Positions 54,699 through 55,007 of a stretch of 64,000 bases of DNA are shown in pieces. Position 1 is the first letter of the stretch. Each line of letters starts with the position of its first letter. The DNA lies in contig CANFCG010000008.1 of assembly GCA_947445115.1 (NCBI GenBank), positions 21,289-85,288 on the forward strand, in the 5' to 3' direction. This DNA is from Comamonadaceae bacterium. Lineage in GTDB: Bacteria > Pseudomonadota > Gammaproteobacteria > Burkholderiales > Burkholderiaceae_C. Below the pieces are notes generated by a model, which had not been told where the DNA came from, did not search any database, and saw nothing but the letters and a program-made list of their open reading frames with translations. Position numbers and translations under genes: made by a program.

Positions 54699-55007
54699 AT
54701 GAACCTTCATACTGCACGCAGTTTCACCTCTGCCGCTTTTGTTGCGCTTAGCTTGACGCTGTCTTCGGGTGGTGTCTTGGCTATGCAGATATTTGTTAAA
54801 ACGATCACCGGAAAAAAAATTGTCATTGATGTTCAGCCTAGCGATACTATTGAAGGGATTAAAGTGAAAGTACAAGACAAGGAAGGTAATCCACCCGACA
54901 CCCAAAGACTTATTTTTAATGGGAAGCAGCTTGAAGATAATCGTACGGTGGCCGATTACAACATCCTAAAAGAAAGCACACTTCACTTGATGATTCTTCG
55001 TAAGTAG
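54699..55007 (+). CDS. exported ubiquitin (Sec signal peptide plus ubiquitin lacking Gly-Gly)
   Basis: The 102-aa protein has residues 1-28 as a Sec signal peptide (basic/polar start, hydrophobic core FVALSLTL, cleavage site VLA). It is joined exactly to Met1 of a ubiquitin of 74 residues. By hand alignment 52 of 74 positions equal human ubiquitin with no gap. Lys6, 11, 27, 29, 33, 48 and 63 are all kept, as are Ile44, His68, Tyr59, Pro37-Pro38 and the KESTLHL strand. Leu8 is Ile and Val70 is Met. The tail ends LRK, so Arg-Gly-Gly needed for E1 activation is absent. GC of the ubiquitin part is about 38% by my count, below its neighbours. GGAG lies 8 bases before ATG 54699. Bacteroides fragilis has a comparable exported, GG-less ubiquitin. 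No E1, E2, E3 or protease gene is nearby. Confidence 0.95.
   Translation: MNLHTARSFTSAAFVALSLTLSSGGVLAMQIFVKTITGKKIVIDVQPSDTIEGIKVKVQDKEGNPPDTQRLIFNGKQLEDNRTVADYNILKESTLHLMILRK

Follow-up and report, generated by a model that had tools for sequence, protein, structure and literature searches.

Ubiquitin is usually presented as a defining protein of eukaryotic cells, which raises the question of what a ubiquitin gene with a predicted signal peptide is doing in a Burkholderiales-type bacterium. The gene lies in a stretch of 64,000 nucleotides, which we call the window.

An exported bacterial ubiquitin is already known, because the published text counts Bacteroides fragilis as "one of a few bacteria" that have a gene of this kind (PMC5705921). 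Its product BfUbb is a secreted antibacterial toxin whose signal sequence ends at Met1 and which is missing the terminal Gly. BfUbb is directed at strains of B. fragilis itself, some of which are inhibited by a synthetic 76-mer but not by bovine ubiquitin, and its use seems to require no immunity protein (PMC5705921). The gene is present in 13 of 97 genomes, in a chromosomal slot that varies between strains and alternates with a toxin-antitoxin pair, and the mode of action was still open in that work (PMC5705921). A second paper reported that recombinant BfUbb binds human E1 and inhibits ubiquitination in vitro; it ascribed a covalent BfUbb-E1 complex, seen under non-reducing conditions, to the C-terminal Cys of BfUbb (PMC3352274).

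The encoded protein

The open reading frame (54699–55007, forward strand) starts with an ATG at 54699, stops at 55005–55007 and encodes 102 amino acids; a sequence resembling a ribosome-binding site, GGAGAG (54686–54691, forward strand), lies 7 nt upstream of the ATG. Residues 1–28, MNLHTARSFTSAAFVALSLTLSSGGVLA (54699–54782, forward strand), have an Arg in the n-region and a hydrophobic core, end in V-L-A, and are predicted from the sequence, its hydropathy and comparison with the family to be a signal peptide of the signal peptidase I type. By the home-made signal rule given below, the hydropathy maximum of this segment is 1.73, with Ala at −1. Ubiquitin Met1 is residue 29, directly after the signal-like stretch, and the mature part (54783–55004, forward strand) is 74 residues long and ends in LMILRK. 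The first-pass annotation had described a 28-residue signal peptide joined precisely to Met1 of a 74-residue ubiquitin, which agrees with the coordinates and sequence found here, and when we recomputed its count of identities to human ubiquitin we obtained the same 52 of 74, ungapped.

The protein scores 92.8 bits (E = 1.1e-26) with the Pfam ubiquitin family (PF00240), whose cut-off is 25.4; in the PDB, its match to a polyubiquitin chain reaches E = 2.7e-283 and that to single ubiquitin 5e-33. A structure prediction made without an alignment gave a poor model (pLDDT 61); with 17 aligned rows AlphaFold2 gave a mean pLDDT of 92.9, and Foldseek placed a solved ubiquitin, 4pig_A, at the top rank with a TM score of 0.97 over the model. 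Membership of the family is indicated both by a sequence above the curated cut-off and by a predicted β-grasp ubiquitin fold, and together they support the view that the window protein is a true ubiquitin, which is predicted to be exported.

Its C-terminus reads H68-L69-M70-I71-L72-R73-K74-stop, so that Gly-Gly is absent and R72 is replaced by Leu. Ordinary ubiquitin conjugation requires a terminal Gly-Gly, and is therefore impossible for a protein with the tail ILRK. The mature protein contains no cysteine. It keeps all seven lysines together with Ile44, His68, Arg42, Gly47 and Lys48; L8 is replaced by Ile and V70 by Met, and the changes in the core are conservative (L15I, V26I, I30V, L56V).

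The gene is single-copy in its own genome. The protein has no match to the IPTL-CTERM sorting signal (TIGR04174) at E values up to 1, and the PADLOC anti-phage defense models gave 0 families at E values up to 0.01. A search of the genome for an E2 enzyme (PF00179) found no match, but its controls, like those of a genome search for IPTL-CTERM, were silent too, so that neither search carries weight. A promoter consensus scan found nothing upstream of the gene and one intragenic match (54820–54848), with 1.6 matches expected by chance; a consensus scan found no terminator-like site near the gene, with 1.1 expected by chance.

A variable slot in the genome

The genome carrying the window is 2.34 Mb in size, 97% complete and in 59 contigs. 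The ubiquitin gene has a GC content of 42% and a GC3 of 0.42, compared to a GC3 of 0.57–0.65 in 10 of the 11 neighboring genes measured; the eleventh (47966–48685) is likewise GC-poor. GC content is low (0.41–0.48) in successive intervals from 54250 to 55249.

All four same-genus genomes examined (completeness 93, 96, 99 and 78%) lack the gene. By blastn, 53356–53902 aligns at 89.0% identity with one of them (G001, locus L055), running to the contig end there, and 55305–56519 at 91.1%; in a second (G004, L057) the corresponding matches are 52308–53882 at 86.5% and 55305–56519 at 89.2%. Because these flanks align in both genomes and other ORFs lie between them in place of the ubiquitin gene, we regard 53903–55304 as a variable slot. 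A third genome, G003, shows synteny with the window on the right side only. The conserved left flank (52554–53975, reverse strand), identified from the ORF list and synteny, is a Rieske-type oxygenase by inspection, and the conserved right flank (55317–56534, reverse strand) is a thiolase (PF00108/PF02803) whose protein is 97, 86 and 95% identical in G001, G003 and G004. The slot also contains a 178-residue EamA-type transporter ORF with only one EamA domain (53967–54503, forward strand; PF00892, 64.4 bits), with matches of merely 29–31% identity in three of the five genomes G001–G005. The ubiquitin gene is thus accessory and foreign in composition.

Other features of the region may be recorded here. 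Between the ubiquitin gene and the thiolase there is a broken reading frame, antitoxin-like by eye (55010–55288, reverse strand). Further away, 48962–49183 encodes a BrnA-type antitoxin (PF14384), and DNA 72% identical to this region sits in the G001 slot (L055, 908–1178). A brief look for a phage link of the window's own slot found none.

Occurrence in prokaryotes

A scan of one genome per species gave 19 loci, all of which encode ubiquitin or a piece of it. A signal-like stretch immediately precedes residue 1 in 18 of them; in L012 (Frisingicoccus) the ubiquitin follows a longer N-terminal part, which itself starts with a signal peptide by eye. The loci come from Synergistota, Pseudomonadota, Bacteroidota, Bacillota, Actinomycetota, Lindowbacteria and Methanothrix-type archaea. 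Whole-genome searches, run on overlapping genome sets and with the window's own genome counted each time, were positive for 2 of 40 relatives, for 4 of 399 genomes in the order, for 10 of 399 in the family and for 2 of 398 in the phylum. These counts still include two weak matches, L025 in the phylum and L040 in the family.

We assembled 33 prokaryotic rows, which exclude L025 and L040 as well as the viral-contig rows L030 and L031; two rows come from L014, and four are incomplete (L015, L016, L019, L020). Our home-made rule called a segment signal-like if the mean hydropathy exceeded 1.6 in some 12 of the 32 residues before residue 1 and if Ala, Gly or Ser stood at −1. On this definition a signal-like stretch immediately precedes residue 1 in 27 of the 33 rows, the window included. 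All 27 have Ala or Ser at −1, and in all but L028, where it is Phe, residue 1 is Met; the window's hydropathy maximum is the lowest among them. The six remaining rows are L012 and the Burkholderiaceae loci L026, L060, L062, L063 and L064. In these five Burkholderiaceae loci Met1 would be the start codon (GTG in L026) and a hydrophobic tail is found at the C-terminus only, a puzzling topology. The archaeal loci L004, L007 and L015 (Methanothrix-type) combine a signal peptide with ubiquitin, which in L004 forms the tip of a 1495-residue repeat protein.

Protein-database homologue searches, which scored approximately 8000 candidates sharing most words, returned mainly eukaryotic polyubiquitin among the best 120 of 7057 to 7992 matches; the matches listed in a third search, with the alignment trimmed to the signal peptide plus 53 residues, still looked eukaryotic. 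These searches therefore give no frequency of bacterial forms. The gene had first been taken for an isolated bacterial case beside BfUbb; this view gives way to one of exported-type ubiquitins with the same junction in several phyla. Judged from their sequences, the prokaryotic exported ubiquitins form a sparse family that shares the arrangement of signal and Met1.

Architectures and neighbors of the relatives

Nine proteins were scanned with Pfam. An autotransporter domain (PF03797) lies C-terminal to ubiquitin in L003, L008, L013 and L014, S-layer homology (SLH) domains follow it in L017, and the archaeal L004 has SdrD_B repeats. Ten C-terminal tails from the window's family and order were also scanned: L058, L060 and L061 score above the IPTL-CTERM cut-off and L028 below it, and L064 scores above the cut-off of MYXO-CTERM (TIGR03382). 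The L062 and L063 tails match merely a related model, far below its cut-off, and those of L018 (Halieaceae), L026 and L029 have no sorting-signal match. In L060 the IPTL-CTERM is present and the signal peptide absent. Most complete relatives continue beyond ubiquitin, and a recognized anchor follows it in seven signal-bearing loci (L003, L008, L013, L014, L017, L058, L061), so that adhesion fits as well as antagonism. The signal-bearing proteins with nothing after ubiquitin, the free-standing forms, are those of the window, of Flavobacterium L005 and L006, and of L066 from a viral contig. In Thauera (L014:180–3001) two exported-ubiquitin genes of similar length stand in tandem, the second fused to an autotransporter barrel.

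No conserved partner or immunity gene was found in an all-versus-all comparison of 298 ORFs, ubiquitin ORFs included, at a threshold of 1e-8, in which the widest groups span three loci (the later viral loci and L016, L020, L025, L030, L031 and L040 being left out). That no neighbor family occurs in at least four loci would be compatible with a weapon that consists of one gene and needs none for immunity. As a separate observation, related proteins of 330–332 residues are encoded beside the ubiquitin-autotransporter gene in L003 (7243–8241) and L013 (4826–5818). They have no Pfam match above cut-off, the L013 protein has no PDB match, and their resemblance to SET-domain proteins is by eye only.

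Viral contigs and plasmids

In IMG/VR, whose contigs provide all of the phage evidence, relatives are encoded on 17 distinct contigs. By eye, a signal peptide directly precedes residue 1 in seven of the 17 (L065, L066, L068, L069, L070, L072, L073), eight have no signal peptide, and L098 and L099 are ambiguous and uncounted. In L068 and L069 a ubiquitin with an IPTL-like tail is located upstream of genes for the terminase small subunit, the terminase large subunit and the portal; the terminase genes of the two contigs belong to different families. A terminase large subunit is found in L070 as well. Among the other contigs, L072 carries a tape-measure gene, L065 encodes a phage-type methyltransferase and L066 has tail-fiber assembly and DarA genes. 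The signal-peptide ubiquitins of L068, L069 and L070, all three with an IPTL-like tail, are near-identical, resembling a moron-like gene in recombining phages. A search of 50,697 phage records gave no match with the window protein or the L069 protein.

The L066 gene (3905–4228; IMG/VR 3300021559_000195) encodes a signal peptide and a complete ubiquitin with an intact RLRGG followed by a stop, with prophage-type genes around it, and may represent an early stage of the change that led elsewhere to loss of the tail. The same contig has a cyclophilin gene (1568–2101), 1.8 kb from ubiquitin. The target of BfUbb is reportedly a peptidyl-prolyl isomerase; a cyclophilin of the L066 type occurs in no other locus compared, and we set it aside as a ubiquitin partner since it is confined to L066.

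A relative is also carried by the mobilizable plasmid pRUMAL01 of Ruminococcus albus, with a transposase-type gene within 4 kb and a dockerin protein near. Four viral contigs of 13.6 to 223 kb (L096, at 5001–5741, L097, L100 and L101) encode proteins of approximately 250 residues that have a ubiquitin-like domain at the start and no signal peptide, and that are possibly virion proteins.

Phylogeny and conservation

The tree comprised 80 rows and 74 columns. It used human ubiquitin and the first 45 of 69 eukaryotic representatives (24 being left out), and omitted L016, L020, L025 and L040, which are short or weak, as well as a second, weak match from L030; the viral rows L065–L073 stand outside it. 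The window row joins Flavobacterium L005 and L006 with support of 93/85, which is below star level, and has a long end branch of 0.43. The prokaryotic label needs 10 changes on the tree. A single prokaryotic clade is absent from the best tree, yet it is not rejected (p-AU 0.397). With 74 columns, the donor and the choice between one and many transfers are beyond the reach of the tree.

The exact junction in so many rows suggests either a single ancestor or strong selection for the native Met1 as N-terminus. The gene was likely acquired from a eukaryote, directly or via another prokaryote or a phage, and since the same junction occurs in several phyla the last donor was perhaps one of the latter two. 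The first-pass annotation had proposed horizontal acquisition of a eukaryotic gene, and the foreign composition and the absence from genus mates make this likely, though the step need not have been direct.

Over 29 rows, identity to human ubiquitin is 92% in the core, approximately 79–80% at other non-core positions, 85% at the lysines and 70% in the Ile44 patch. Gly76 is found in 4% of rows, and the sole Gly-Gly (L063) has more residues after it. The lower conservation of the Ile44 patch relative to other non-core positions (0.70 versus 0.79, permutation value 0.053) is only a hint, because the residue lists for core and patch rest on general background and the rows are related. The eukaryotic-receptor surface, the Ile44 patch, thus appears to have no special conservation, and if anything falls below other non-core positions. 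The lysines are not clearly above other non-core positions (permutation value 0.18), and hence the retention of all seven in the window is uninformative.

Discussion

Relative to eukaryotic ubiquitin, the window protein is alike in 52 of 74 residues, in its predicted fold and in its seven lysines, but differs in its predicted export, its inability to be conjugated and its single unit. ThiS, MoaD and the Bil/CBASS Ubl proteins are cytosolic, and their C-terminal Gly is activated by an E1-like enzyme. The window protein shares the β-grasp fold with them; unlike them it has no Gly-Gly and is predicted to be exported. The PADLOC models gave no match for it. As in the window, Flavobacterium L005 and L006, Methylotenera L013, Pseudovibrio L008 and Burkholderiales L003 have a signal-like stretch before residue 1 and have lost Gly-Gly. 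Prokaryotic relatives mostly extend after ubiquitin, several into anchors, whereas the window protein does not; the Flavobacterium proteins are free-standing like it, but have cysteines.

From the published description, BfUbb and the window protein are alike in being free-standing, in having a signal, predicted for the window protein, that leads to Met1, in lacking the terminal Gly, in being sparsely distributed and in occupying a variable slot (PMC5705921). BfUbb belongs to another phylum and has a C-terminal Cys, whereas the window protein ends in LMILRK without Cys (PMC3352274). Toxicity is described for BfUbb only, and the window protein is likened to it by published features rather than by alignment (PMC5705921). 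On sequence grounds, the window gene joins the exported ubiquitins as a form without the Cys of BfUbb.

On this analogy, and with a little more doubt than belief, we propose that the tail-less ubiquitin would likely leave the cytoplasm as a free 74-mer and would likely act as an extracellular binding protein, most probably against competing bacteria. Sec export and cleavage by signal peptidase I would leave the native Met1 as N-terminus, and release would follow by leakage, in vesicles or by some outer-membrane route. The ubiquitin might then dock on or enter sensitive neighbors and, by analogy with BfUbb, bind a target protein and so block it. In some relatives an autotransporter barrel or sorting tail would keep the module on the surface of the producer, and the window form would be its free, diffusible version. 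Bacterial antagonism appears the likeliest mechanism because the window protein shares the sequence features of BfUbb given above, though without the Cys. We would rank it first, at less than even odds, and a surface or structural module second.

This second reading, in which the protein is a stable surface or periplasmic β-grasp module, adhesive or structural, and the window has an anchorless version, is unlikely but serious. It accounts for relatives in which ubiquitin stands N-terminal to barrels, SLH domains, SdrD_B repeats or sorting tails, several of the same family having a sorting-type tail that the window lacks; and the fold is the best-kept feature, with identity falling from 92% in the core to 79–80% outside it and 70% in the Ile44 patch. 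It is harder to reconcile with a window form that stops at ubiquitin, and non-core positions still approximately 79% identical to human are more than a mere scaffold should need. The specific toxic activity described for BfUbb also argues against it (PMC5705921).

A secreted decoy, entering protists or animals as predators or hosts and disturbing E1 or ubiquitin receptors, is improbable. The 52 human-equal residues, with the seven lysines, Ile44, His68, Arg42, Gly47 and Lys48 all kept, would suit such a role, as would the binding of human E1 and the block of ubiquitination in vitro by recombinant BfUbb (PMC3352274); but its authors ascribed the link to E1 to the C-terminal Cys, whereas the window protein in its mature form is free of Cys and carries Leu in place of Arg72. 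Nor is the Ile44 patch specially conserved across the family (0.70 versus 0.79, permutation value 0.053). The suggestion that the protein might mimic or interfere with host or protist ubiquitin is therefore not sustained: the tail is lost, the Cys of BfUbb is absent and the patch is not specially conserved.

Slightly less probable still is a recent acquisition that is decaying without a selected function. The end branch of 0.43, the broken antitoxin-like frame adjoining the gene and consensus scans without an upstream promoter-like or a terminator-like site (1.6 and 1.1 expected by chance) speak for it, but the frame is intact, the ribosome-binding site good, the junction exact, the predicted fold confident and the core substitutions (L15I, V26I, I30V, L56V) conservative. 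An assembly chimera or eukaryotic contamination, although it would explain the low-GC stretch and the absence from four genus mates, is very unlikely because both flanks are syntenic at 86–91% in G001 and G004, quite apart from the bacterial-type signal peptide, the many bacterial relatives and an identical protein on three contigs in a large protein database (P0050), which may assemble the same material.

Antagonism remains the preferred reading. It draws on an open frame with an exact junction, a predicted ubiquitin fold and no Gly-Gly, on a foreign composition and a variable slot, and on sparse relatives, some of them with phage or plasmid neighbors. As a more guarded proposal, a module of signal peptide and native Met1 ubiquitin, borne on phages and plasmids and either surface-displayed or free, might serve inter-bacterial recognition or killing, not tagging.

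Our literature search, mostly outside subscription journals and covering the best-listed papers only, found nothing on autotransporter-fused or phage ubiquitin. Three things appear to be unreported in the literature searched: the occurrence in several phyla, the fusion of ubiquitin to autotransporters or to sorting tails, and its position beside phage genes. The window adds a free, predicted-exported ubiquitin in a Burkholderiales-type bacterium. The family represents a natural set of ubiquitins whose evolution went on without a tail for conjugation. If it is true that the module serves competition or recognition, then the question of why bacteria took up ubiquitin becomes directly testable.
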